Shown here: in pieces, positions 46,258 to 60,488 of the stretch
Position numbering within the stretch: the first letter of the stretch is position 1
Layout of the letters: each line of letters starts with the position of its first letter
Origin: Bradyrhizobium diversitatis
GTDB taxonomy: Bacteria; Pseudomonadota; Alphaproteobacteria; Rhizobiales; Xanthobacteraceae
Assembly (NCBI RefSeq): GCF_016031635.1
Contig: NZ_JACEGD010000019.1
Span: 186,001-250,000 of the forward strand
Direction of reading: 5' to 3'
DNA length: 64,000 nt
Made by a program: the position numbers and the translations under genes
Notes under the pieces: generated by a model
Databases searched by the model: none
Told to the model about the DNA's origin: nothing
Seen by the model: only the letters and a program-made list of their open reading frames with translations

Positions 46258-47073
46258 TTAGCCATCCGCCGGCAGCCCCTGCGCGAGGCTGCGAAAGCGC
46301 AGCGGTGCCAGCGCGGATGCTCGCTGCCACCAGTCGGCGACGCGGTCATCGAGGGCGGTCGTGCCGCGGCCCTGGCCGGGGAAGATCCGGATCTGCTGGA
46401 TCGCCTCGGCCTCAAACCCCCTGCCCTTGCGCGTGATCCTGAGGGCCGCGCCTTCGCGATCCCGCTGCGTCAGCGGCACCAGGAGGCGGCCGCGCGGACG
46501 GAGCGACTGGAGCCAGAGCGGGTGCGGCTGCGGGAAGCCGGCATGCACGATGATCACGTCGGCGGGTTCGCCGACGTCCTTGCATCCGTCGCCGTTGACG
46601 ACCGTGACGTTGCGATATCCGTGCAAGTGGCTCGCCGCTCGGGCCGCGAGCCGCTCGTCGCATTCGATCGCACGTACACTGCCCCTTGGACCGACCATCT
46701 TCGACAGCACCGCGGAGAAATAGCCAAGTCCGCAGCCGATCTGCACGACGCGGTCCTTCTCCCTGACGTCGAGAATGTCGATGAGATGCGCCCACAGGCT
46801 CGGCAAGCCGGTGTCGAGCTTGCGGCGGGCGTCGATCGCGACCAGCACATTGTCGTAGAGATGAACGGGATCCGCGTCGGGCGTCAGCCGGTAGCTGCGC
46901 GCCGCCTCGCTCTTGATGCGCCAGGGCCCCCTCGACAGAAAATCCTCGCGCGGAACAGTGGCGAGCGCCTCGAGCAGGCGGGGCGAGGAAATCCGCTCGC
47001 GCCTGGCAATCCGCTCCACGTAGCGCGCACGCGCGGCGGCAAGATCGCGCATGTCACAGATCGGCCTGTTCAC
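46258..47073 (-). CDS. protein-L-isoaspartate O-methyltransferase-like protein
   Basis: 271 residues. The PCMT fold has the SAM-binding motif VVQIGCGLGYFSAVLSKMVG, followed by RAIECDERLAARAASHLHG and ALATVPREDFLSRGPWRIKS near the N-terminus. The loop differs from classical Pcm (EIGTGSGYQ), so it may repair isoaspartate or methylate another acid. Its ATG 47073 overlaps the stop of the preceding cyclase-ATPase gene by 20 bp, implying coupling; M8 (47052) is an alternative. Confidence 0.8.
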   Translation of the reverse strand: MNRPICDMRDLAAARARYVERIARRERISSPRLLEALATVPREDFLSRGPWRIKSEAARSYRLTPDADPVHLYDNVLVAIDARRKLDTGLPSLWAHLIDILDVREKDRVVQIGCGLGYFSAVLSKMVGPRGSVRAIECDERLAARAASHLHGYRNVTVVNGDGCKDVGEPADVIIVHAGFPQPHPLWLQSLRPRGRLLVPLTQRDREGAALRITRKGRGFEAEAIQQIRIFPGQGRGTTALDDRVADWWQRASALAPLRFRSLAQGLPADG

Positions 47074-50000
47074 GCGCGGGCGTGTCGGTCCCGAGTTCGG
47101 CCACGAGCTGCATCGCCTGCTTCAGGTCCGGCGTGTAAAAACCCTCGGTGAACTTGCCCACGACCGGCGCGAGCAGGAGACTTGCGTGCTCGCGCCTGCC
47201 GGCTTCGAGCGACAGGCGCGCGAGGCTGACGGCCGTGCGAAGCTCCCAGGACAGCGCACCCTGCTTGCGCGCTGTCGCCAGCGACTGGGCGAACAGCTCC
47301 TCGGCCTCCTGCACCGAGGCGGGATCGCCATCCGACAGGATGATTTCGCCTTGAAGGCGATAGACCTCGGCGAGGTAGGAATGATCACCGGTCCGCCGCG
47401 CGGTTGCGAGCGCGCCGTCCAGCGCACGCAAGGCGGCATCCCGCATCCCGACCTTGGCGTAGGCTTCCGCGAGCAGGCAGCGGAACCAGCAGCCGGCAAG
47501 CCAGGAATCCATCGCCTCGTACTCGTCGAGGCCGAAGCGCATCTGGCTGAGGCCTTCGTCGGTCTCGCCGAGCTGCGTCAGCGCCCAGCCGCGCAGGATC
47601 GTCGCCTGCTGCTTCCAGTGCAGGAAATTGTGCTCGCTGGCGATGATCATGGCGCGGTTGGCGTGGTCGCGCGTACCCTCGACGTCGCGCAGATGCTGGC
47701 AGAGATAGGCGCCGAACACGAGCGCGAAGGCGAGCGTGAAGGGATGGCGGATCTCCTCGGCATTGGCGATCGCCTGCTCGCTGTGCTGGCGCGCCGCGTC
47801 AGGCCGGCCGAGGAACCAGAGGAGATAGCCGAGATAGGACCGCGAGACGACGCCGGGATCGGTGCCGTGCCGCTCCATCAGGTCGGAGTGCAAATCGGGG
47901 CTGTAGAGATTGATGCAGCGGTGCAAATGATGCTGTGAGGCGGCAAAGCGGCCGCGATAGAGCATGGTCATCGCGATCGCACGGTGCGCCTCGATCAGAT
48001 AGCCGGTCTGCTGCGCCGGCTGCGGACGCTCGCTCAGCCGCTGCCGCTTGGCGAATCTCAACAGCTCGACGCTGAGATCGTGCGCGCGGGTGAGATCGGC
48101 GCGGATGAAATGGCACACCCAGAGTCCGCGAGTGGCTGCGAAGACCTTCTCGTCGTCATCGAGCTGATGGCCGAGCTCCAGCGCGCGGATGTAGTTTTCC
48201 TCGACTTCCTGCACCGCATAGCCCTTGGCGGCAATCAGCGAAATGCCCAGTGCGATGCGCAGCTCGAGCTCCATCTCGTCGGCCCCCGGTATGCCCGCGC
48301 TGGCGTGCACGACGCTGAGGCCGCGGCGCAGATGGCCGATCGCCTCCAGATTGGCGCCGCTCCTCGCCGCCTGCTTGCCGGCCTTGAGCCAAAAATTGGC
48401 GGCGCCCTCGCTCTGGCCAGATTCGGTCAGGTGATGGGCGAGCAGTTCCGGCTCGCGCTCGGACTTCTCCGGATACATTTCGGAAAGCACCTGGACGATC
48501 CGGGAATGCAGCTTGCGCCGCTCGCTGTGCAACAGGCTCGCATGCGCGGCATTCTGGATCATCACGTGCTTGAAGGAGTAGAGCGCGTCCGGTGGATGGC
48601 CGCGGCGCATGATCAGCCCGGCCTCCTCCAGATGATTGAGTGCCGCCACGATCTGCTCGGCCGGCGTGTTGGCGACGGCGCGCAGCGTCTCGTAGGAGAA
48701 CTCGCGACCTATCGTGGCGCCGATCTGCGCGATCCGCTTGAACGGTCCCATCCGGTCGAGCCGCGCCATCAGCGAGTCGGTCAGGGTTGCCGGGATTGCG
48801 AGCTGCCGCCACGGCCCGGACAGCACATAGCGCCCGTGCCGCTCGGTCAGCAGGTCGGATTCGAGAACCGTCTTGGTCAGCTCTTCCAAAAACAGCGGCA
48901 CGCCGTCGGTCTTGACGATGATCTCCTCGACGACCTCCTTGGGCAGCTCGCGTCCCGCCACGCGCTCGACCAGCGTCGTGCGCAATTGCCGGCTAAGGCG
49001 GTTCAGGACCACGGTGGTGATGTGTGAATGCGCGTTCCAGCTCGGCTGGAATTCGGATCGCGCGGTGATGATGACCAGGATCGGCCGGTTCTGCACCCGG
49101 TCGACCAGAAGGTCGATCACCTCGCGGGACGTCGGGTCGATCCAGTGCAGGTCCTCGAATGCGATCACCAGCGGCATCTCGCGCGCAAGGCAGGGAGAAT
49201 TTGAGCTGGTCGACGAACGGATGGAACGCCGTGGAGGTGTAGTAAGGCGAGCATTGGAGCGAGACTTGTCCATGGCGGTCGCCCGATATCCGCTCGAAGA
49301 TTTCCTGGATGATGCGCGACTTGCCGATGCCGGGCTCGCCGAACTTGACCACGACCTGACCGTCGCCGTCCTTGGCCTGCTGCCAGCGCCCCATCAACAG
49401 CGCGATCTCCTCCTCGCGGTTGACGAGCGGCGTCAACCGCGAGCCCCTGGCGGCGGCGAAGCGGGTCTCCACCCGCGAGGCGCGCACCACGTGCCAGGCC
49501 TGTGCCTTCTCGGGGATTCCCTTCAGGACATGGACGCCGAGATTGCGGTAGTCGAACTTCCCCTTCAGCAGCGACTGCGTCGAGGCCGAGATCACCACGC
49601 CATTGGGCGGCGCCAGGGCCTGCAGGCGCGCAGCGAGATTGACGGTTTCGCCGACCGCGGAGTCGCGTTCTTCGGTGCCCTGCCCGACGAGGTCGCCGAC
49701 CACGACGAGGCCGGTCGCGATCCCGATACGGACGGCGGGTGAATGGCTGAGCGCACCGCGCTGCTCGACCGCGTGCGCCGTCGACAGCACCCGCACGATC
49801 TCGAGCCCGGCGCGCACCGCGCGCTCGGCATCGTCCTCATGTGCGGTCGGATAGCCGAAATAGACCAGGATACCGTCGCCGACGAAACGGGCGGCAAAGC
49901 CCTCGTAATGCTTGACCACGCGAACGCAGGTTTCGCGGAAGCCTGCAATCATGTCGCGGACGTCTTCGGGATCGAACTGCGCGGACAGCGAGGTGGAATC

Positions 50001-50312
50001 CACCATGTCGCAGAACATCGTGGTGAGCTGGCGCCGCTCGGCTCCGACCTCCGCCCGTGCTTGCGGACGCACCGCCTCGACTGGCGCCTCCGCCGTTTCC
50101 GCTTGAAACAGCGCCGCCATCGCCCGCTGGATCCGCTTGCGATCGCCGAGCGGCAATCCGAGTTCGACCAGGTCGGATTCGGTCAGGTCCCCGATCACGT
50201 CGAGATCGAGACGGTGCTGCGCGAACAGATCGGTGTAGTGACCGAGGCCGATACCGTCGAGCCAGCGCTTCAGCTCGCCTTCCGTCCCGGTGCCCGGCTC
50301 ATTCTCCAGCAT
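47054..50312 (-). pseudogene. SAM-cyclase-AAA ATPase-TPR regulator, broken by deletion/frameshift
   Basis: A large signalling ATPase in two frames. Part 1 (ATG 50312 to about 49200) has a SAM domain (LKRWLDGIGLGHYTDLFAQH), a class III cyclase domain (TMFCDMVDSTSLSAQFD, RFVGDGILVYFGYPT, GIATGLVVVGDLVG) and an ATPase start with Walker A GEPGIGKSRIIQE, ending HPFVDQLKF. Part 2 resumes at CLAREMPLVIAFEDLHWIDP (Walker B) and continues into TPR repeats to 47054. In related proteins roughly 75-100 residues separate these segments, so an internal deletion plus frame change lies at about 49189-49203. The cyclase half may still be made. Confidence 0.8.
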
Positions 50313-50351
50313 GGTGATTCTGCCCGACCAGCACTCCGTCGAAGGGCTCTG

Positions 50352-50380
50352 GAGCCCCTCAACCACAGATTTTGGGGCTC
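50352..50380. promoter_or_regulatory. inverted repeat GAGCCCC-N15-GGGGCTC in the NRPS promoter region
   Basis: Perfect 7-bp arms (50352-50358, 50374-50380) lie in the 136-bp gap between the divergent cyclase-ATPase and NRPS genes. Candidate operator or mRNA hairpin; no assigned factor. Confidence 0.35.
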
Positions 50381-50448: not shown

Positions 50449-53400
50449 ATGGCGTTGTCGGACATTGCATCCGGAGCAGACGAAGGATCAGCCGGTGCCA
50501 CGGCCGAAACGAAGATATTCGCGCATATCAGCGACCTTCTCGAGTTCTACGCGCGCAGGACACCGGCGGCGCCCGCACTCCTCGCCCCTGGCCGGCCGGT
50601 TCTCACCTACCGCGCCTTGGGCGACCGGACGCAGGATCTGATCGGCACGCTGCGCGGGCTCGGCATCGCGCCTGCGGACCGCATTGCAGTTGCACTGCCG
50701 CGTGGCGCCGACAGCGCGTTGGCATTGATCGCGGTCGCGTCGGCCGCCGTATGCATCCCCGTCAGTCCGGATCTGACGGCGGACGAGCTGCAACGCTATT
50801 TCAGCGAATTGAAGCTGGCGGCGCTCGTGACCCGGGCCGACATGAACTCGGCGAGCCGCGACGTCGCCAGGGCGCTCGATATCGCGGTGATCGATTTCGT
50901 GCCGGGGCTGGAAGACGATCTCGGCGGTTGCGCGTTCATCGGCCCCTCGGTCGGACCGGCGAGCACCAGTGGTCCCTCGCGCGGCGACGACGATGCGTTC
51001 ATCCTGTTGACGTCAGGCACGGCGGCGCGGCCGAAGATGGTGCCGCTGACGCATCGCAATGTCTGCCTGTCCGCTCACAATGCCGGCCATGTGCTGTCGC
51101 TCACGTCGCGCGATCGCCTGCTCAACGTCCTGCCGCTGTTTCATGCCCATGGCTTGATCTCCGGCCTTCTCACGGCGCTGGCCGCGGGCTCCAGCGTGAT
51201 CTGCACCGACGGCTTCGATTCTTCGTCCTTCTTCGGCTGGATGCGGGAGCTGCAACCGACCTGGTACACGGCGGTGCCGACCATTCATCGCGCATTGCTG
51301 ACGGCGGCGGAGGCGAACCCGGACCGTGCCCGGTCGTCGTCGCTGCGCGTGATCCGCTCGGCCTCGGCCTCGCTCGCGCCTGCGATTCTTCGAGGGCTGG
51401 AGGCGACGTTCGGCGTTCCCGTGCTGGAGACCTACGGGATGACGGAAGCGGCCTCGCAGATCGCGGCCAATCCGTTCGAGCTGCGCAAGGTCGGATCGGT
51501 CGGCCGCGCCGCCGGCCCCGAGATCGCGATCATGGACGAGACCGGCCGCACGCTTGCAAGCGGGGCGCGCGGCGAGATCATGCTGCGCGGGCCCAACATG
51601 AGCCGCGGCTATTATAATGACGAGGCGGCGACGCGGGCTGCGTTCCGCAATGGCTGGTTCCGGACCGGCGACCTCGGCTATCTCGATGCCGACGGCTATC
51701 TCTTCATCGTCGGCCGCATCAAGGACGTCATCAACCGCGGTGGGCAGAAGATCTCGCCGCTGGAGGTGGAAGAAGTCCTGCTCGGCCACCCGGCGGTGCT
51801 AGAGGCCGGCGTGTTTGCCGTGCCACACTCGAAGCTCGGCGAGAACGTCGCCGCCGTCGTGGTGCTCCGGCCGAATTCCGAGGCCACGTCCGACCAGCTG
51901 CGCAAGTTCGCACGAAAGCGGCTCGCAGCCTACAAGGTACCGAGCCTGATCCGCAGCGTCGCGGCACTGCCGAAGGGCGCCAGCGGCAAGGTCAAACGCG
52001 GTGCGCTGGCCGGACTGATTGCAGCAGTGGACGGCCGTGACGAGACCCGGCTGCCGCGCAATGCGATGGAGACCCAGCTCGCCGAAATCTGGGCTGGTCT
52101 GTTGGAGCTGCCGCAGCTCGGCGCCGACCAGGACGTCTTCGCGCTCGGCGCCGACTCGCTCGCGGTGACGCAGATGCGCTCGCGCCTGCGCGAACGCTTC
52201 AATGTCGAGTTCTCGTTCGAGGACATCTTCGATTGCACCACGGTCGTAGCACTTGCGGCGCGGATCGAAACCGCCGCAAGCCGGCGCGAGGCGGCGCTGC
52301 CGGCCTGGCGCCCCGCTGCGGGCGCAGACGCACCGCTGTCGTTCCAGCAGCAGCGGATGTACGTCCTCTCGCGGCTCGACCCGACCCGCTACAATTACAA
52401 TGTCGTCGAAGTTGCGCTCCTCGACGGCCCGGTCGACGGCGCCGCGCTTTCTGCGAGCCTCACTGCGATCTGCACACGCCATGAGGCGCTGCGCACAATC
52501 TTTATCGAACGTCGGGGCGAGCCGGTGCAGCTTGTGCTGTCATCGCCGCCGCAATTCGCGCGCGTCAAGCTCAAGCCCTGCCCTGCCGGCAAGCGGCTCG
52601 CGGTTGTCCGGCGCGAGGCGCTCAAGCTCGCGCAACATCCGTTCGACCTGGCTCACGAGCCGCCGCTGAAGGTCACGTTGCTGTCGTTCGACGGGAACAG
52701 CCATGCGCTGTTGGTCAACGTCCATCATCTCGTCACCGACGGCTGGTCGCAGCGGCTGTTCTGGGAGGAGCTCGCCGTCCACTACGCCGCGGCACGCAAG
52801 AAGCACCCGGCCGCGCTGCCTCCGCCCGCGTTCCAGTATCGCGACTTCGCGCTCTGGCAGCAGAGCTGGGCGCAGACGCCGGCGGCGAAGGAGCAGCTTG
52901 ATTATTGGAGGGCCCAGCTCAACGGCGTCACCACGCTGCCGCTGCGAACGGACCGGCCCAGGCCGGAGGTCTGGAGCGGTCACGGCGCGCGCCACTATCT
53001 CGAATTTTCCAAGTCGCTGTCGGGCGACCTGCGCGCACTGAGCCAGAGCCAGGGCGTCACACCGTTCATGACGCTGCTGGCGGCCTTCCAGTGCCTGTTG
53101 TTCCGCCACACCTCGCATGAGGATGTCGCGACCGGCTCGCTGATCGCCAACCGCAACCAGATCGAGAGCGAGCGCCTGATCGGGTTGTTTGCCAACACCC
53201 TCATCCTGCGCAACGATTTCAGCGGCGATCCGAGTTTCGGCGAAATGTTGCGGCGGGTGCGACAGGTCACGTTGGATGCCTACCGCAACCAGGACCTCCC
53301 GATCGAGGAGGTGTTGCGCACGCTCCAGATCGCGCGCCGCAGCGACGGCAACCCGCTGTTCCGGATCATGTTCATCCTGCAGAACGCCTCGATCGAGGCG

Positions 53401-56400
53401 GCACGTTTTCCCGGCCTGTCGGCACGACGGCTGGAAATCGATCCGAAGGTGGCGCGCTTCGACATCACGCTCGAACTGGTCGAGGCCGATGGCCGCTTCA
53501 GCGGGTTCTTCGAATACGCCACCGATCTGTTCGACGCCGCGACGATCGCAGGCATGGCCGCCCAGTTCAGGACGCTGCTCAAGGCCGTCATCGCCAATCC
53601 GGAACAGCGCATCTCGCGCCTGCCGCTGCTGACCGAAGCCGAACGCCGGCTGTTGCTGGCGAAGGGCCGGGGCGCGCCAGCCAATTTCACCACGCGCGGC
53701 AATTTGAGCGAACGCTTCGCACGCCAGGCGAGGAAGACGCCGAACGCTATCGCGGTGTCGGACGGCCGCACGTCCCTGAGCTATCGCGAGCTGGCGCACC
53801 GCAGCCTGGCGGCCGCGCGCTGGCTGGCCCGTGAGGGCATCGGCGCCGAGAGCGTCGTCGCCTTGCTCGCGGAGCGCGGGCCCGACCTGCTGACCGCGAT
53901 GATCGCGGTGCAGCGCGTCGGCGCGGCCTTCCTCAATCTCGATCCCGACCAGCCGACCGCCCAGCTCACGACCATCCTCGGATCGAGCTGTGCCCGCGTG
54001 TTGCTGATCGGACGGGCTCAGTCCGCCATGGTCGAGGCACTGCTCGAGCCGCTGGTCGAACGCATGCAGGTGGCCGCGCTCGAAGACGCGATCGCGTCAG
54101 GGGTGACCAAGCCCGCTCGCGCCGCACCGCGGGCCGCCTCCAGCCTCGCCTATCTCGTCTATACGTCGGGCTCCTCCGGCGCGCCAAAGGGCGTCATGAT
54201 CGAGCAGCGCGGCCTGTCGAACCATCTCGCTTCGCTCATCTCCGAGCTCGACCTCTCCGCCGGGGACGTGATCGCGCAGACCGCGCCGCAGAGCTTCGTC
54301 ATCTCGGTCTGGCAATTCCTCGCCGGACCGATGGTCGGCGCGCGCGTGCATGTCGTGGGCAACGCGATCGCGCGGGACCCGACCCTGCTGGCGCGGGAGA
54401 TCGAGCGTGAGGGCATCACGGTGCTCGAGATCGTGCCTTCGCTGCTGCGCGTCATTCTCGATCGCCTGGAGGAAGTGCCGGTGCTGCGCGCCTTCTCCAG
54501 GTTGCGGCTCCTGATCTCGACCGGAGAGCCATTGCCCGTCGAGCTCTGCCACGCCTGGTTCGCCCGCTGTCCGAAAGTGCCGCTGATCAATGCCTATGGC
54601 GCGTCGGAATGCTCCGATGACGTCTCCCTGCATCGCCTGACCAAGGCCCCGGCGGTCGCGACGGGCAACGTTCCGGTCGGCGCGCCGCTGCCGAACACCC
54701 AGCTCTACGTGCTCGACGCAAACCTCCAGCCGCAGCCGATCGGCGTGACCGGCGAGCTCTGCATCGGCGGTGCCGGCGTCGGCCGCTTCTATGTCAACGA
54801 TCCCGCGCAAAGCCGGCAGCGCTTCCTCCCCGATCCGTTCTCGCGCCAGCAAGGCAGCCGGCTCTACCGGACGGGCGATCTTGCCCGGCGCCGCGCCGAC
54901 GGGACGATCGAATGCCTCGGCCGTGCCGACCACCAGGTCAAGATCCGTGGCCATCGCATCGAGCTCAAGGAGATCGAGAACGCGCTTGCCGAGCATCGAA
55001 GCGTGCGCGCCGGCATCGTCGAGCCGCGCCGCGAGGCGAGCGGCGATATCAGGCTGATCGCCCATATCGTCGCAAAGCCCGGCAGCCGGAGCAGCGCCAG
55101 CGAGCTGCGCGAATTCCTGAAAGCCAGGCTGTCGGTCCACGCCATTCCGTCCGCCTTCCTGTTCCTGGATCAGGTGCCGCTCAACGCCCATGGCAAGATC
55201 GACCGCTCCGCGCTGCTGGCCTCCGCCCCGCCGGAAACGTCCGGGCCGGACGCGGCCGTGCCGGCGCGGCGCTTCACCGAAAAGGTACTTTCCGACATCT
55301 GGGTCGACCTGCTGAAGCTCGAGAGCATCGGTGTGACCGACAATTTCTTCGATCTCGGCGGGCATTCGCTGCTGGCTGGCCAGGCGATGGCGCGCGTCGC
55401 CCGCGCGCTTGGCGTGTCGCTGCCGATCAAGACCATCTTCGAGGCACCGACGATCGAGGAACTCGCTCGGCGGGTCGACGAGGCCGTGGCGGCGAAGCCG
55501 CACAAGCCTGCCGCAAGCATGCCGCGATTGGCTGCGAGCGGGCCTCCTGCGCTTTCCATCGCGCAGGACCAGATGCTGCGGATCGAGCGGAATCTGCCGG
55601 AGCTGCCGTTGTTCAACCTGCCCTTCGCCTTCCGTCTAGAGGGCCCGCTCGATCCGGCCGCCCTGGCAAAGGCGATAGATGATGTCGTGCGCCGGCACGA
55701 ATCGCTGCGGACCGCGTTCACCTGGAACGGCGAGGAGCCCGAAAGCCGCATCGTCGCGCCTCGCGCCCTTGGCCCCGTCATGACCGTTGAGACGATCGGC
55801 GACGGTCAACCCCACAACAACAAGCGGCGCAGGGCGCTCGAACTCAGGAAGATCGATCTCCTGATCGAGCAGGAGACCTATACGCCGATCGACACCACGC
55901 GCGCCCCGCTGCTGCGCGCCCGGTTGTTGCGGCTCCACGACGACGACCACGTGCTCTTGCTGACGCTGCATCACGCCATTGTCGACGGCTGGTCGATCGG
56001 CGTGCTGTTCGAGGAATTGTCGAGCCGGTATGCGGCGCTGGCCGGATATCCGTCGGTGCCGCTGCCGAAGCCGCCGGCGCCTTATTCGGCGGTCGCACGC
56101 TGGCAGCGCTGGTGGTGCGATACCGACGCCGCCCGCCGCCAGGCGTCCGACTGGACGGAGAATTTGCGCGGAGCGGGCCCCGTCTTCGACGGCGAAGCGC
56201 GCCCGGGCGCATCCACCGGGCACCATCCGGTCAGCCTCGAGCGTGACCTGGTCGGCCGGCTCACGGCGCTCGCCGGCCGGCACAATTGCACGCTGTTCAT
56301 GTGCCTGCTCACCGGCCTGAAGGGCATGCTGCTGGCGCGGACGGGCCGCACCGACATCGCGGTCGCGACCGCCATGGCCAATCGTGCCCAGCCTGACACC

Positions 56401-56892
56401 GACCGCATCATCGGCCCGTTCGAGAACACGGTGATCGTCCGTACGACAATCACGCCGGAGCTGTCGTTCGCGCGGGCCCTGGTGCGGGTGCGCCAGAGCG
56501 TGCTCGACGCGCATGGGCGGCAGGAGCTGCCGTTCAGCATCCTGGCCGACCATCTGGAGCAGGAGGGGATCGATCCGGCCTCGCTGCTCCAGGTCTATTT
56601 CACGCTGCAGAATCCACTGCGCCAGCCCCTCGATCTGCCGGATCTCGCGACAGAATCGATCGGCAACATCGCGCGCGAAGGCCAGCCGGTGCTGCCGATC
56701 GACCAGACCCGGCTGTCGCTGATGCTCAAGGAGCGGCCGACCGGCATCACCGGCTCATGCAACTACAAGCGCGAGTTGCTCGAGGGCCGAATGGTCGGCG
56801 AGTGGATGGAGGATCTCGTCGCGCTGCTGACGGCGGCCGTCGCGCAGCCCAACACGCCGCTCGGCCGGTTACTCGCTCGCAGGGCAGCATGA
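50449..56892 (+). CDS. two-module nonribosomal peptide synthetase A-PCP-C-A-PCP-C
   Basis: A 2147-residue synthetase. A1 (about 20-520) has LLTSGTAARPKMVPLTHRNV at 185 and PLFHAHGLISGLL, resembling AAE3/oxalyl-CoA-synthetase-like acid ligases more than amino-acid A domains. PCP1 has Ser570 (LGADSLAV). C1 has HHLVTDG at 759. A2 has YTSGSSGAPKG at 1238, NAYGASECSDD and the terminal Lys in NAHGKID. PCP2 has Ser1640 (LGGHSLLAG). C2 has HHAIVDG at 1841. There is no thioesterase, reductase or epimerase. Predicted product: a small acyl acid joined to one residue, then passed by C2 to an acceptor. ATG 50449 is chosen because upstream in-frame residues are non-homologous. Confidence 0.93.
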   Translation: MALSDIASGADEGSAGATAETKIFAHISDLLEFYARRTPAAPALLAPGRPVLTYRALGDRTQDLIGTLRGLGIAPADRIAVALPRGADSALALIAVASAAVCIPVSPDLTADELQRYFSELKLAALVTRADMNSASRDVARALDIAVIDFVPGLEDDLGGCAFIGPSVGPASTSGPSRGDDDAFILLTSGTAARPKMVPLTHRNVCLSAHNAGHVLSLTSRDRLLNVLPLFHAHGLISGLLTALAAGSSVICTDGFDSSSFFGWMRELQPTWYTAVPTIHRALLTAAEANPDRARSSSLRVIRSASASLAPAILRGLEATFGVPVLETYGMTEAASQIAANPFELRKVGSVGRAAGPEIAIMDETGRTLASGARGEIMLRGPNMSRGYYNDEAATRAAFRNGWFRTGDLGYLDADGYLFIVGRIKDVINRGGQKISPLEVEEVLLGHPAVLEAGVFAVPHSKLGENVAAVVVLRPNSEATSDQLRKFARKRLAAYKVPSLIRSVAALPKGASGKVKRGALAGLIAAVDGRDETRLPRNAMETQLAEIWAGLLELPQLGADQDVFALGADSLAVTQMRSRLRERFNVEFSFEDIFDCTTVVALAARIETAASRREAALPAWRPAAGADAPLSFQQQRMYVLSRLDPTRYNYNVVEVALLDGPVDGAALSASLTAICTRHEALRTIFIERRGEPVQLVLSSPPQFARVKLKPCPAGKRLAVVRREALKLAQHPFDLAHEPPLKVTLLSFDGNSHALLVNVHHLVTDGWSQRLFWEELAVHYAAARKKHPAALPPPAFQYRDFALWQQSWAQTPAAKEQLDYWRAQLNGVTTLPLRTDRPRPEVWSGHGARHYLEFSKSLSGDLRALSQSQGVTPFMTLLAAFQCLLFRHTSHEDVATGSLIANRNQIESERLIGLFANTLILRNDFSGDPSFGEMLRRVRQVTLDAYRNQDLPIEEVLRTLQIARRSDGNPLFRIMFILQNASIEAARFPGLSARRLEIDPKVARFDITLELVEADGRFSGFFEYATDLFDAATIAGMAAQFRTLLKAVIANPEQRISRLPLLTEAERRLLLAKGRGAPANFTTRGNLSERFARQARKTPNAIAVSDGRTSLSYRELAHRSLAAARWLAREGIGAESVVALLAERGPDLLTAMIAVQRVGAAFLNLDPDQPTAQLTTILGSSCARVLLIGRAQSAMVEALLEPLVERMQVAALEDAIASGVTKPARAAPRAASSLAYLVYTSGSSGAPKGVMIEQRGLSNHLASLISELDLSAGDVIAQTAPQSFVISVWQFLAGPMVGARVHVVGNAIARDPTLLAREIEREGITVLEIVPSLLRVILDRLEEVPVLRAFSRLRLLISTGEPLPVELCHAWFARCPKVPLINAYGASECSDDVSLHRLTKAPAVATGNVPVGAPLPNTQLYVLDANLQPQPIGVTGELCIGGAGVGRFYVNDPAQSRQRFLPDPFSRQQGSRLYRTGDLARRRADGTIECLGRADHQVKIRGHRIELKEIENALAEHRSVRAGIVEPRREASGDIRLIAHIVAKPGSRSSASELREFLKARLSVHAIPSAFLFLDQVPLNAHGKIDRSALLASAPPETSGPDAAVPARRFTEKVLSDIWVDLLKLESIGVTDNFFDLGGHSLLAGQAMARVARALGVSLPIKTIFEAPTIEELARRVDEAVAAKPHKPAASMPRLAASGPPALSIAQDQMLRIERNLPELPLFNLPFAFRLEGPLDPAALAKAIDDVVRRHESLRTAFTWNGEEPESRIVAPRALGPVMTVETIGDGQPHNNKRRRALELRKIDLLIEQETYTPIDTTRAPLLRARLLRLHDDDHVLLLTLHHAIVDGWSIGVLFEELSSRYAALAGYPSVPLPKPPAPYSAVARWQRWWCDTDAARRQASDWTENLRGAGPVFDGEARPGASTGHHPVSLERDLVGRLTALAGRHNCTLFMCLLTGLKGMLLARTGRTDIAVATAMANRAQPDTDRIIGPFENTVIVRTTITPELSFARALVRVRQSVLDAHGRQELPFSILADHLEQEGIDPASLLQVYFTLQNPLRQPLDLPDLATESIGNIAREGQPVLPIDQTRLSLMLKERPTGITGSCNYKRELLEGRMVGEWMEDLVALLTAAVAQPNTPLGRLLARRAA

Positions 56893-57031
56893 GCGGGTTA
56901 CGTCGCGGACGAGTACGGATTCACGTGCGAAGGCTGTGAATGATCAAGTTGCGTCTTGATTATTTGGCGTCGCCGCGCAAGATTATTCCCGCGCTTCGAT
57001 TTGGACGATTGTTTTCAACCGGGGGAATATT

Positions 57032-57202
57032 ATGGGTTTCGTCAAATTTACCAAGGGCACCTCGTTGAGCGACAAGGATCGCAAGGCCCTCCAGAAGCTG
57101 CTGACCAACGAGAAAAAGAAGCTGCAATCCGCGCTGAAGGACGTCGACGCCAGCCTTTCGATGCTGGGCGGATCGAAGAAGACCAAGAAGAAAAAGAAGT
57201 AG
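57032..57202 (+). CDS. small lysine-rich protein between NRPS and PPTase
   Basis: A 56-residue, strongly basic, probably helical protein (FTKGTSLSDKDRKALQKLLT, ending KKTKKKKK). ATG 57032 has GGGGGA 7-8 nt upstream. It is not MbtH-like in size or sequence. Possibly nucleic-acid or carrier binding; its place in the synthetase locus may be accidental. Confidence 0.6.
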   Translation: MGFVKFTKGTSLSDKDRKALQKLLTNEKKKLQSALKDVDASLSMLGGSKKTKKKKK

Positions 57203-57244
57203 AATTCGCCGGCCGGGAGGCCGCAGCAATCTCCAGACTTCAAC

Positions 57245-57320
57245 GTTCGAGCTTCAGTTCTCGGACTTTGGATTTCAGTCTTTGACTTTCGGCCTTTAAT
57301 TTTCGGCCTTTGGTTTTCGG
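57245..57320. repeat. degenerate 14-bp tandem repeat, consensus TTTCGGCCTTTGGT
   Basis: About 5.4 units in a row: the last two full units (57287-57300 TTTCGGCCTTTAAT, 57301-57314 TTTCGGCCTTTGGT) are nearly identical and are followed by TTTCGG; earlier units at 57273, 57259 and 57245 are increasingly diverged. T-rich on the plus strand, in the 301-bp gap before the PPTase gene, which otherwise shows nothing clear. Confidence 0.7.
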
Positions 57321-57503
57321 TCGTGGGCCGCTCGCTGATCGAGTTGGGGTCTCGCACAAGCTTGCGCCTGTAAACCGGCCTGCAAATCGACAAGAATTCG
57401 CCTGGGTGGACCGTTAGGAACGGTCCTCTTGGTGATTCTTGCGCAGTTGAATCTTCCGTCAGGACCGGGGATTTGGCCTCGCCTGACGTCATGGGCCCAA
57501 GTG

Positions 57504-58235
57504 ATGGCGGACGACAGAATTGAACTCTTTGTCGGGCTGATCGAGACCATTGACAGGCCGGGCGCGGTCGAGGCGTGCCGGCGTCTGCTCTCGGTCGACG
57601 AACGAGCCCGGGCCGATCGCTTCATGTTCGAGCGGCACCGGCGGCAATACATCTTCGCACACGCCATGTTGCGCCTCGCACTATCGCAGGTCGCGCGCAA
57701 CGTCGCGCCCTCCGACTGGTCCTTTGCCGCGGGCCGCTATGGGCGGCCGTTTGTCGCAGCGCCGGTCAGCTCGACCCCGCTGCATTTCAGCCTGTCGCAT
57801 GCCGACGGATGCGTCGCCTGCGTGGTGTCGCGGCATGAGGCCGTCGGGGTCGACGTCGAAACCGTGTCACGGCGCGTCGCCCCGCTGTCCACCGCGCTCC
57901 GCTTCTTTGCGCCGGAGGAAGTCGAAACGCTGCGCGGGCTACCCGAGCCCGCGGCCATCGAGCGCTTCTTCGACTATTGGACGCTCAAGGAGGCCTATCT
58001 GAAGGCCAGAGGCTTTGGACTCAATTTGCCGCTCGACGCCTTCGCGATGCAGGTGTCGAGCAAGGCCATCGAGATCAGCTTCAAGCCCGACATCGCCGAC
58101 GATCCGGACGGCTGGCGCTTCTCGCTGTGCTCGCCATCGCCCTCGCATCGCCTCGCGATCGCCGACGGCTCCCGTGCGGACGGCGGCCTTCCCATCAGCC
58201 ACCATGCCTGGCCGCTCCAGCAAGCGGCTGAATGA
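57504..58235 (+). CDS. Sfp-type 4'-phosphopantetheinyl transferase
   Basis: A 243-residue Sfp-like enzyme that converts apo-PCP domains to the holo form using CoA. Signature blocks are VGVDVETVSRR (the Mg-binding D-x-E), FSLSHADGCVACVV and FFDYWTLKEAYLKARGFGL (W-x-x-K-E-A). ATG 57504 is used; TTG 57429 or GTG 57432 upstream in frame are possible but add residues not needed for the fold. It overlaps the next gene by 4 bp. Dedicated activation of the upstream synthetase is the simplest reading. Confidence 0.93.
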   Translation: MADDRIELFVGLIETIDRPGAVEACRRLLSVDERARADRFMFERHRRQYIFAHAMLRLALSQVARNVAPSDWSFAAGRYGRPFVAAPVSSTPLHFSLSHADGCVACVVSRHEAVGVDVETVSRRVAPLSTALRFFAPEEVETLRGLPEPAAIERFFDYWTLKEAYLKARGFGLNLPLDAFAMQVSSKAIEISFKPDIADDPDGWRFSLCSPSPSHRLAIADGSRADGGLPISHHAWPLQQAAE

Positions 58236-59212
58236 TGCCGCCGCGGCTGCGCGTCTTTCCGGCGATTTCACGCAACCGCGATCCCAAGGCCTATGTCGGC
58301 GAGCAGATGCGGGTGGCCGGGTTCGCCGACCGCAACGGCTTCGAAGGCATCCTGCTGTTCGAAGGCAATGACGTGTTCGTCGAGCCCTGGGCGATGGCCC
58401 AGCACATCATGGCAGAGACGACGCGGAGTTCGCCGCTGATCGCCGTCAATCCGCTCTACATGCACCCGTTCACGGCCGCGAAATTCGTTTCGTCCTTCGC
58501 GCAGCTCTACGGCCGCAAGGTCTACCTCAACATGATCACGGGGACGGCGGTCAGCGACTTGCAGGGACTGGGCGACGACCAGTCGCATGCCGATCGTTAC
58601 GTTCGGCTCGGCGAATACGTCGCGCTGATGCGCCAGTTGCTGGCAAGCCCGCGACCTGTGAACTTCGCGGGCCGGTTCTACCGCGCCAGCAATCTGCAAC
58701 TTCGTCCGCGCCTGCCCGCGGAGCTGATGCCGGAGTTCCTGATCGCCGGCCAATCCGAGGCGGCCCAGCGCGTCGCGGAGGAGACCGGCTGCATCAAGAT
58801 GCAGATGCTGCCGCCCGACCTCGATCGCGGGCTCGACGCAGCAGGCATGAGCTTTGGAATTTTCGCGCGCGCGGACCGCGACGAGGCCCGGCTGGCCGCA
58901 ACGGCGCGCTTCCGCGACAATCAAGATGATCGCGAGCTGCTCGCGCTCACGGTGGAGAACAGCGACTCCGTGTGGAAGCGCCGGCTCCATGAGGGGCAAA
59001 GCGGCGAACTTCAGGACAACGGCTACTGGCTGCTGCCGTTCCTGACCTTCCAGGCCGACTGCCCCTATCTCGTCGGCAGCTACGAAGAGATCGGCGCGAA
59101 GCTGAAGCAGTTTTCGGCGAAAGGCCTGACCACGATCATGCTCGACATGGTCGCCGACGAGTCCGAGATGCAGCACGTCCGCAAGGCGCTCGCGGCGAGC
59201 GGGATGTTTTGA
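58232..59212 (+). CDS. LLM-class flavin-dependent monooxygenase
   Basis: A 326-residue luciferase-like TIM-barrel enzyme using reduced FMN (FPAISRNRDPKAYVGEQMRV, then FAQLYGRKVYLNMITGTAVS and AGQSEAAQRVAEETG). Related enzymes sit beside or inside some NRPS clusters and hydroxylate or oxidise substrates; others desulfonate alkanesulfonates. ATG 58232 overlaps the PPTase stop (ATGA), giving tight coupling. It probably tailors the synthetase product or prepares its substrate. Confidence 0.9.
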   Translation: MMPPRLRVFPAISRNRDPKAYVGEQMRVAGFADRNGFEGILLFEGNDVFVEPWAMAQHIMAETTRSSPLIAVNPLYMHPFTAAKFVSSFAQLYGRKVYLNMITGTAVSDLQGLGDDQSHADRYVRLGEYVALMRQLLASPRPVNFAGRFYRASNLQLRPRLPAELMPEFLIAGQSEAAQRVAEETGCIKMQMLPPDLDRGLDAAGMSFGIFARADRDEARLAATARFRDNQDDRELLALTVENSDSVWKRRLHEGQSGELQDNGYWLLPFLTFQADCPYLVGSYEEIGAKLKQFSAKGLTTIMLDMVADESEMQHVRKALAASGMF

Positions 59213-59462: not shown

Positions 59463-60488
59463 TCACCTTGCTTCTTCGAATCCTGCCAGCACCGAGGTCA
59501 GGTTCGCGCCGAGGATATCCGAGAGATAACCGCCCTCCTGCACGAACACGGTCGGCAGGCCCATTTTCGCGATGGCCTGGCCGATGCGGCGGAAGCCGGG
59601 CGTGGTGACGGCCAATCCCTTCAGTGGATCGTGCTCGGAGGCATCGAGACCGAGCGCGATGACGAGGGCGCCCGGCGCAAACGACTCGATCGCCTTGCGC
59701 GCGAGGTCCAGCGCCTGGATGTAGCCGTCATCGCCGGTGCCGATGGCCAGCGGAATGTTGAGATTGGTGCCGAGACCGGGGCCTTCGCCGCGCTCATGCG
59801 CATAACCCCACACGAAGGGGTAATAGGCGGTCGGATCGGCATGGATCGAGATCGTGTAGACGTCGGGCCGGGCATAAAAGATGCCTTGCGTGCCGTTGCC
59901 GTGATGAACGTCGACGTCGAGGATCACGACGCGCTCGTGCTTGAGCCGCAGATGCGCGGCGGCGATCGCGCTGTTGTTGAGAAAGCAGAAGCCGCCGGCC
60001 ATGTCGCGATAGGCGTGATGGCCGGGCGGACGGCACAGCGCGTAGGTCGCGTCCTCGCCGTCCATCACCATCTGCGCGGCGGTGACTGCGACATCGGTCG
60101 CGGCACAGGCGGCCGCCCATGTGCCCGGCCCGATCGGCGCCGCGGTGTCGGCAGTGTGCCAGCCGAGCTTGCCGACGATGTGGGTGGGATAGGTTGCGGC
60201 ATGGCGCACCGGATGGATGTTGCCGATCATCTCCGGACCGGAATCGCCGAGCGCCGTCCAGGCGTCCCAGGCTTCGCTCAGGAACGACAGATATTCCGGA
60301 CTGTGAATGCGCGCGCGCGGCCCCTGCCCGAACCTGGTCGGCTCGACCAGTTGATGCTTTCCGTCCTTCAATCCCTTGAGCAGGCGGTCGGCACGCTCGG
60401 GCTGCTCGGTGGTGCGCTTGACGACACCGCGAACCAGGAAGAATTGCGGATCGTGGCTGCGGTGCAGTTCGGTATGGACGGCTTTCAC
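59463..60488 (-). CDS. histone-deacetylase-fold amidohydrolase (acetylpolyamine-type)
   Basis: A 341-residue class II HDAC-like enzyme with a zinc site: CRPPGHHAYRDMAGGFCFLN (His-His pair), VVILDVDVHHGNGTQ (Asp and His ligands) and ALGLDASEHDPL (second Asp). The bacterial group includes acetylpolyamine amidohydrolases and HDAHs. ATG 60488 (MKAVHTELHRSHDPQFF). The EGGYLSDILGANL ending is typical. Acts in the cytosol; the acyl substrate is unproven. Confidence 0.93.
   Translation of the reverse strand: MKAVHTELHRSHDPQFFLVRGVVKRTTEQPERADRLLKGLKDGKHQLVEPTRFGQGPRARIHSPEYLSFLSEAWDAWTALGDSGPEMIGNIHPVRHAATYPTHIVGKLGWHTADTAAPIGPGTWAAACAATDVAVTAAQMVMDGEDATYALCRPPGHHAYRDMAGGFCFLNNSAIAAAHLRLKHERVVILDVDVHHGNGTQGIFYARPDVYTISIHADPTAYYPFVWGYAHERGEGPGLGTNLNIPLAIGTGDDGYIQALDLARKAIESFAPGALVIALGLDASEHDPLKGLAVTTPGFRRIGQAIAKMGLPTVFVQEGGYLSDILGANLTSVLAGFEEAR

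Follow-up and report, generated by a model that had tools for sequence, protein, structure and literature searches.

Among nonribosomal peptide synthetases (NRPSs), those primed with an acid include lipopeptide synthetases with acyl-AMP ligase loading domains and the aryl-acid NRPSs, and in VibH and the rhabdopeptide NRPSs a terminal condensation (C) domain attaches a free amine. Here we describe a synthetase that resembles both groups, encoded in a 64,000-nucleotide stretch of the Bradyrhizobium diversitatis genome (assembly GCF_016031635.1, contig NZ_JACEGD010000019.1, forward-strand positions 186,001 to 250,000), which we refer to as the window and in whose numbering all coordinates are given. 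Like the acid-primed NRPSs it would start from an acid, but its first adenylation (A) domain, A1, comes instead from the AAE3/oxalyl-CoA-synthetase branch of acyl ligases; like the VibH and rhabdopeptide type it ends in a C domain without a thioesterase (TE), although this domain, C2, best matches general C domains such as that of Txo1. An NRPS loading domain from this branch, with a switched pocket, is present in 79 of 146 genomes of these soil and root-nodule bacteria. We conclude that the NRPS family is real, conserved, and uncharacterized, that its starting domain is unusual, and that its small partner protein is undescribed; its chemistry, as set out below, is a prediction from sequence. 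Previous work on the genus includes a count of NRPS-siderophore clusters in 234 Bradyrhizobium genomes, where the clusters are related to malleobactin (PMC12815270), and the listing of blr2108, a peptide synthetase of strain USDA110 that figures in nodule and microoxia data, in three of four further articles (PMC6515984, PMC8632152, PMC3899966, and PMC4926349). Our open-access text searches returned no paper describing the locus or its product, in line with the initial annotation of this DNA, which knew of no described product.

The synthetase gene (50449..56892, plus strand) encodes 2147 amino acids (aa), in which Pfam identifies two AMP-binding, two AMP-binding_C, two PP-binding, and two Condensation domains. 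Together with the motifs, these give the order A1-PCP1-C1-A2-PCP2-C2 (where PCP denotes a peptidyl carrier protein domain), with A1 at 50494..52023, PCP1 at 52075..52266 (ALGADSL), C1 at 52330..53658 (HHLVTDG), A2 at 53704..55248, PCP2 at 55267..55506 (DLGGHSL), and C2 at 55543..56889 (HHAIVDG). Both condensation motifs and both carrier serines are intact, so that all three kinds of NRPS domain are present with their catalytic motifs; no TE match was found in the synthetase with Pfam. Three further genes follow on the same strand, encoding a small basic protein of 56 aa (57032..57202), an Sfp-like 4'-phosphopantetheinyl transferase (PPTase; PF01648; 57429..58235), and a luciferase-like flavin monooxygenase (LLM; PF00296; 58232..59212), the last two sharing an ATGA overlap at 58232-58235. 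The initial annotation had read the synthetase, the PPTase, and the overlapping LLM gene in just this way, and Pfam and the motifs confirm it. It was also right that a small basic gene is present; that gene is not the 109-aa frame starting from TTG but runs from an ATG at 57032 to 57202, with GGGGG upstream, and homologues elsewhere keep this frame open.

To define the spread of the locus, we took as matches those to A1 at E<=1e-80, and found them in 88 of the 146 Bradyrhizobium genomes sampled. Leaving out 15 distant matches (37-41% identity, in frames of 828-984 aa) and the second piece of a broken gene in genome G040, the sample contains 81 A1-NRPS loci in 79 genomes, 79 of the window type and 2 of a type represented by locus L112, with A1 identities of 46-100% and one gene broken. 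The locus is conserved in the genus and is not one strain's peculiarity; among the named synthetases in the scan, the closest one comes from Bradyrhizobium sp. CCBAU 51765 and shows 97% identity. For the neighbouring genes we used the named loci that offer at least 20 kb of DNA, 70 out of 75. There, tblastn detected a nucleotide cyclase gene at 68, the PPTase at 66, the small protein at 64 (with L068, L070, L089, and L100, four of its six misses, recovered by profile), the LLM gene at 59, and an acetylpolyamine amidohydrolase at 63, in what is a biased sample because the loci were chosen by likeness to the window's synthetase. In a family-level sample of 248 genomes, seven matching genomes fall outside the genus, among them one with a long synthetase (L152) and one with a single-module synthetase (L153). 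Of 385 genomes sampled at class level, 94 match, and the 92 of these outside the genus do so in frames of 392-727 aa, which are too short to be the long synthetase. Comparison of the whole synthetase with plasmid records gave 414 records, all below 60% identity, the 20 matches listed being general NRPSs.

The relationship of A1 to the oxalyl-CoA synthetases is apparent in both sequence and predicted fold. Against all solved structures, A1 scores 374 bits with two plant oxalyl-CoA synthetases and 286 bits with the yeast enzyme, compared with 210 bits for the next family (FadD13) and at most 175 bits for aryl-acid ligases (DhbE, EntE, and their kin). An AlphaFold2 model of A1 (mean predicted local distance difference test score, pLDDT, 88.5) likewise returned oxalyl-CoA synthetases as the top seven matches by E-value in a fold search, with template-modelling (TM) scores of 0.92-0.94 to the Arabidopsis enzyme. 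By sequence and by fold E-value, then, AAE3/oxalyl-CoA synthetases are the nearest of the solved acyl ligases, and the kinship that had been suggested for A1 is borne out. A1 resembles these enzymes (AtAAE3, 5ie0/5ie2/5ie3; the Lathyrus enzyme, 6qjz; and yeast Pcs60, 8aff) over nearly its full length, sharing PLFHxHG with all three and WYTAVPTIH with the two from plants, but differs from them in being fused to PCP and C domains. In a 31-row tree, the 18 window-type A1 domains group together as a single clade (support 100/100), and these together with three single-module L112-type rows are separated from ten non-NRPS ligases (99/99); the tree is consistent with a single origin of the NRPS-fused A1 domains, without proving it. 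The earlier suggestion that the chain starts from a small carboxylic acid is plausible.

The pocket tells a different story with regard to substrate. The histidine that follows TEA[ATS] in the three enzymes of known structure, and in 21 of 21 non-NRPS ligase rows, is a serine in the window's A1 and is replaced by Ser or Thr in 126 of 126 window-type A1 rows (some loci being entered twice); four L112-type rows also have Ser at this position, which is a gap in one distant row. The His aligns to position 330 of GrsA, one of the ten code positions in the list given in PMC11253843. Two more pocket positions carry smaller residues than in the oxalyl-CoA synthetases, Ile/Val being changed to Ala/Gly in PLFHxHG (PLFHAHG in the window) and Cys/Ser to Ala in RSxS (RSASAS in the window). 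A1 is thus not AAE3-like in the residues expected to set its substrate. Oxalate itself is unlikely to be the substrate because this His, which may bind oxalate, is replaced in every window-type row, and from the changed pocket positions we infer a substrate larger or less acidic than oxalate.

The second adenylation domain, A2, matches ordinary NRPS A domains but departs from the alpha-amino-acid code at position 235. Its ten-residue code, placed by eye on the aligned motifs and numbered as in PMC11253843 and PMC11355689, reads V-I-W-E-I-T-A-D-D-K. Of the Asp235 and Lys517 pair expected in a domain for alpha-amino acids, A2 keeps the Lys and has Val in place of the Asp; indeed, 87 of 88 rows carry Val at position 235, which makes an ordinary alpha-amino acid an unlikely substrate. 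Loss of Asp235 has been described for alpha-hydroxy- and aryl-acid domains, and the beta-amino-acid domains discussed in the same source bind the amino group through Asp235 (PMC11253843). Three acidic residues of A2 (278, 330, and 331) would suit a distal amine. Text searches with specificity-code strings found no known code for A2.

Two HHxxxDG motifs are retained in all 80 rows of at least 2100 aa. In two single-module relatives, L107 and L110, A1-PCP is joined directly to a C2-like domain (45% to C2, 31% to C1) without the middle module, as would be expected if C2 closes the chain. A separate group of loci, lineage b (L098, L094, and L114-L116), has a synthetase without C2 whose C-terminal tail resembles the small protein; at L098, the lineage-b locus examined in full, a separate C-A-PCP-TE protein is encoded behind the LLM gene, with the TE read by eye from GWSFGG.

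The small protein is the synthetase's most constant partner. Iterated profile searches place its homologues directly behind the synthetase in window-type, elkanii-type, L117/L118, and single-module lineages. In the 146 genomes we counted 84 places encoding it at E<=0.01 (one counted from two pieces), of which 76 lie near one of the 81 synthetase loci, 75 on the synthetase's strand and one (in G101) on the opposite strand; the remaining eight comprise four strong second copies (E 1e-13 to 2e-12), three weak matches (E 1e-4 to 0.005), and a two-piece remnant in G071. Only five of the 81 loci are without it: three belong to lineage b, and the other two are of the L112 type, in which another small basic frame takes its place. 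The gene is under purifying selection, with ratios of nonsynonymous to synonymous divergence (dN/dS) of 0.07-0.45 over eight pairs, computed for eight chosen loci. In a scan of 296 family genomes with at most 21 candidates scored per genome, 17 carry the protein (E<=0.001), all 17 of them in this genus. The predicted structure is a single helix (residues 14-55, mean pLDDT 69.6) with a lysine tail. The tail of the lineage-b synthetase scores 15.7 bits against the small-protein profile, a value equalled by one of 20,000 shuffles, and counts as one event since it is confined to one lineage. The protein belongs to an undescribed family: matches in Pfam and NCBIfam are scattered and weak, a single family reaching at most 7 of 27 members in Pfam (E<=1) and at most 4 of 21 members in NCBIfam (E<=0.1). 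The window's own copy has one Pfam and one NCBIfam match, both below cut-off and neither to MbtH. An MbtH-like identity was considered and set aside, MbtH not being among the 25 of 58 Pfam families listed for the 27 members or the 21 NCBIfam families for the 21 members.

The PPTase scores above the PF01648 cut-off and has Sfp as its nearest solved structure, as expected for an Sfp-type enzyme. Its start is uncertain, with TTG 57429 and ATG 57504 (residue 26 of the long frame) both possible; most homologous matches (64 of 70) start somewhere within residues 1-20 of the long frame. The host genome (8.45 Mb) contains two PF01648 members, this one and another in a 176-aa frame that is taken to be AcpS, so that the PPTase of the window probably serves all three NRPS loci of the genome. 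Genome-wide there are 15 condensation domains, 2 here and 11 and 2 at further NRPS loci on contigs C79 and C90, respectively; neither contig has a PF00211 or PF01648 match. We do not retain the initial annotation's description of the locus as self-contained, since the genome has just one PF01648 protein besides this PPTase and since the cyclase gene adjoins the synthetase in most lineages. The LLM protein belongs to the same family as the SsuD-type monooxygenases, which depend on reduced flavin mononucleotide, and SsuD provides its best solved matches (1m41 and 1nqk, about 60-74 bits), but it falls far below the cut-off for an SsuD alkanesulfonate monooxygenase (73.6 bits versus the curated 518.2 of TIGR03565). 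At E<=1e-80 it is found in 61 of the 146 genomes, in all 61 near the synthetase. At L117 the PPTase-LLM pair lies upstream of the synthetase, not downstream, a displacement that supports the link with it.

Upstream of the synthetase, and divergent from it at a distance of about 80-140 bp, is a SAM-class III cyclase-AAA-TPR gene that forms part of the conserved neighbourhood. In the window it is split over two frames of the minus strand (47054-50366 in all), the N-terminal part at 48993..50366 and the C-terminal part at 47054..49273, and a close relative, L049, has it as a single 1160-aa frame; the split reflects either a sequencing error or a recent break. The cyclase is divergent in the window type, L119, and L106, convergent in L117, L118, and L152, and on the same strand just upstream of the synthetase in L112 and L153 or downstream in L107, L109, and L110; in L108 and L111 the nearest cyclase is farther away with another gene intervening, and lineage b has none at the locus. 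The cyclase domain was confirmed by Pfam in nine of nine genes tested (window, L049, L106, L107, L112, L117, L145, L152, and L153), which fall into three make-ups (SAM, zinc-ribbon, and TPR only); the other cyclases are named by likeness. For comparison, the genome has 25 PF00211 matches, and 25 cyclase genes in 8.45 Mb would place one within 6 kb on either side of about 4% of random places.

Based on the domains, the kinship of A1, the pocket changes, and the gene associations, we infer substrates, product, and release, as well as roles for the small protein, LLM protein, and cyclase, in the following scheme. We give about an even chance to the overall reading, that this conserved Bradyrhizobium NRPS makes a small acyl-building block-amine conjugate. 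The PPTase would arm both carriers, and A1, with its reshaped pocket, would load a small non-oxalate carboxylic acid onto PCP1. A2 would load the building block to which C1 couples this acid; the block is probably something other than an ordinary alpha-amino acid, and an omega-amino, hydroxy, or keto acid might serve. C2, with no thioesterase behind it, would release the chain by transferring it to a free amine or alcohol. In strains that carry it, the LLM enzyme may oxidize the product; the 56-aa helical basic protein would serve the synthetase as a subunit or docking partner, and control of the locus may lie with the adjacent nucleotide cyclase. Several observations weigh against this scheme. 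The TM-scores of the A1 model to the Lathyrus and yeast enzymes (0.69-0.82) are no better than those to MatB and chimeras (0.78-0.87). McyG, described as an exception, accepts Phe even though its position 235 is occupied by Val (PMC11253843), so A2 could still accept an alpha-amino acid, and the A2 of L152, from another genus, is the single row that keeps Asp235. The C motifs of single-module relatives deviate (HDIIIDG in L106-L110, HQ..CDG in L112 and L113, HQIIVDG in L153), and with HHxxxDG altered these C2-type domains may not condense or may work differently. The LLM gene is absent from 20 of the 81 loci, so that we take it to be an optional tailoring step. L152 has a synthetase without a recognizable small gene, and four genomes carry second copies of the small protein (L145, L146, L147, and L148) that sit next to a flavin oxidoreductase gene, with no synthetase nearby.

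Alternative explanations of the chemistry bear on the first and last steps. That A1 truly activates oxalate, giving an oxalyl amide (oxamate), would fit the fact that its best solved matches are all oxalyl-CoA synthetases and that it keeps the PLFHxHG and WYTAVPTIH motifs; we nevertheless consider it improbable, given the uniform loss of the pocket His and the two accompanying Ile/Val and Cys/Ser replacements. Release by a cellular hydrolase or by spontaneous cyclization, in place of C2, seems unlikely but deserves more weight, as the second His of HHxxxDG is missing in single-module relatives and lineage b replaces C2 by the separate C-A-PCP-TE protein, against which stands the retention of both motifs in every row of at least 2100 aa. 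An iron-binding siderophore cluster might be suggested by the malleobactin relationship of NRPS clusters in this genus, but the malleobactin-like loci and MbaAB homologues are described in PMC12815270 with epimerase and thioesterase activities, both of which the present synthetase lacks, and neither a receptor nor a SidA-type hydroxylase occurs among the window genes between the cyclase and the amidohydrolase; we regard this explanation as very improbable.

For the small protein we put forward a tentative proposal, that it is a new kind of NRPS accessory subunit. It would be a helix that acts in trans, for docking or activation, that almost all acid-primed Bradyrhizobium synthetases require, that a single lineage has fused to the C-terminus of its synthetase, and that is tied to class III nucleotide-cyclase signalling; the synthetase itself may use no alpha-amino acid at all. 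The main rival, which we also hold to be possible but doubtful, is that the small protein works with the nucleotide cyclase in a signalling module, of which the synthetase is only the regulated target. A SAM-cyclase-AAA-TPR type gene also accompanies the second copies at L145 (checked by Pfam), L146, and L148 (both by likeness), with L147 lying at a contig end, and because these copies adjoin a cyclase gene away from synthetases, the small protein may belong to the cyclase. That possibility is countered by the tail homology in lineage b, whose locus has no cyclase, and by the nearness of a synthetase to 76 of the 84 places. The small partner is directly testable as an NRPS subunit.

On the far side of the LLM gene, the minus strand encodes the acetylpolyamine amidohydrolase (59463-60488; best solved matches 9gkz and 6phr, 295-301 bits), which could free a polyamine for C2 or may be a chance core neighbour. 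A promoter scan of the locus found none, and terminator-like sites were no more frequent than expected by chance. Two frames near the small gene were rejected: the 109-aa TTG frame, which has no Pfam or NCBIfam match and is not the conserved one, and an antisense 169-aa frame (56983-57492), for which Pfam and NCBIfam gave no family match.

Some individual genomes provide additional observations. Relative to the window, the small genes of L033, L034, and L069 have a synonymous divergence (dS) of about 1, compared with 0.25-0.30 for the synthetase, as if the small gene had been exchanged separately; the LLM gene is also missing there. Genome G040 (L140 and L144) has its synthetase gene broken by an internal stop, with the nearby small gene and LLM gene still open. 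Finally, G071 (L149) is without an A1 match but retains the amidohydrolase, the DUF6492 gene of the other side, and an open PPTase gene, with its small gene split over two frames.

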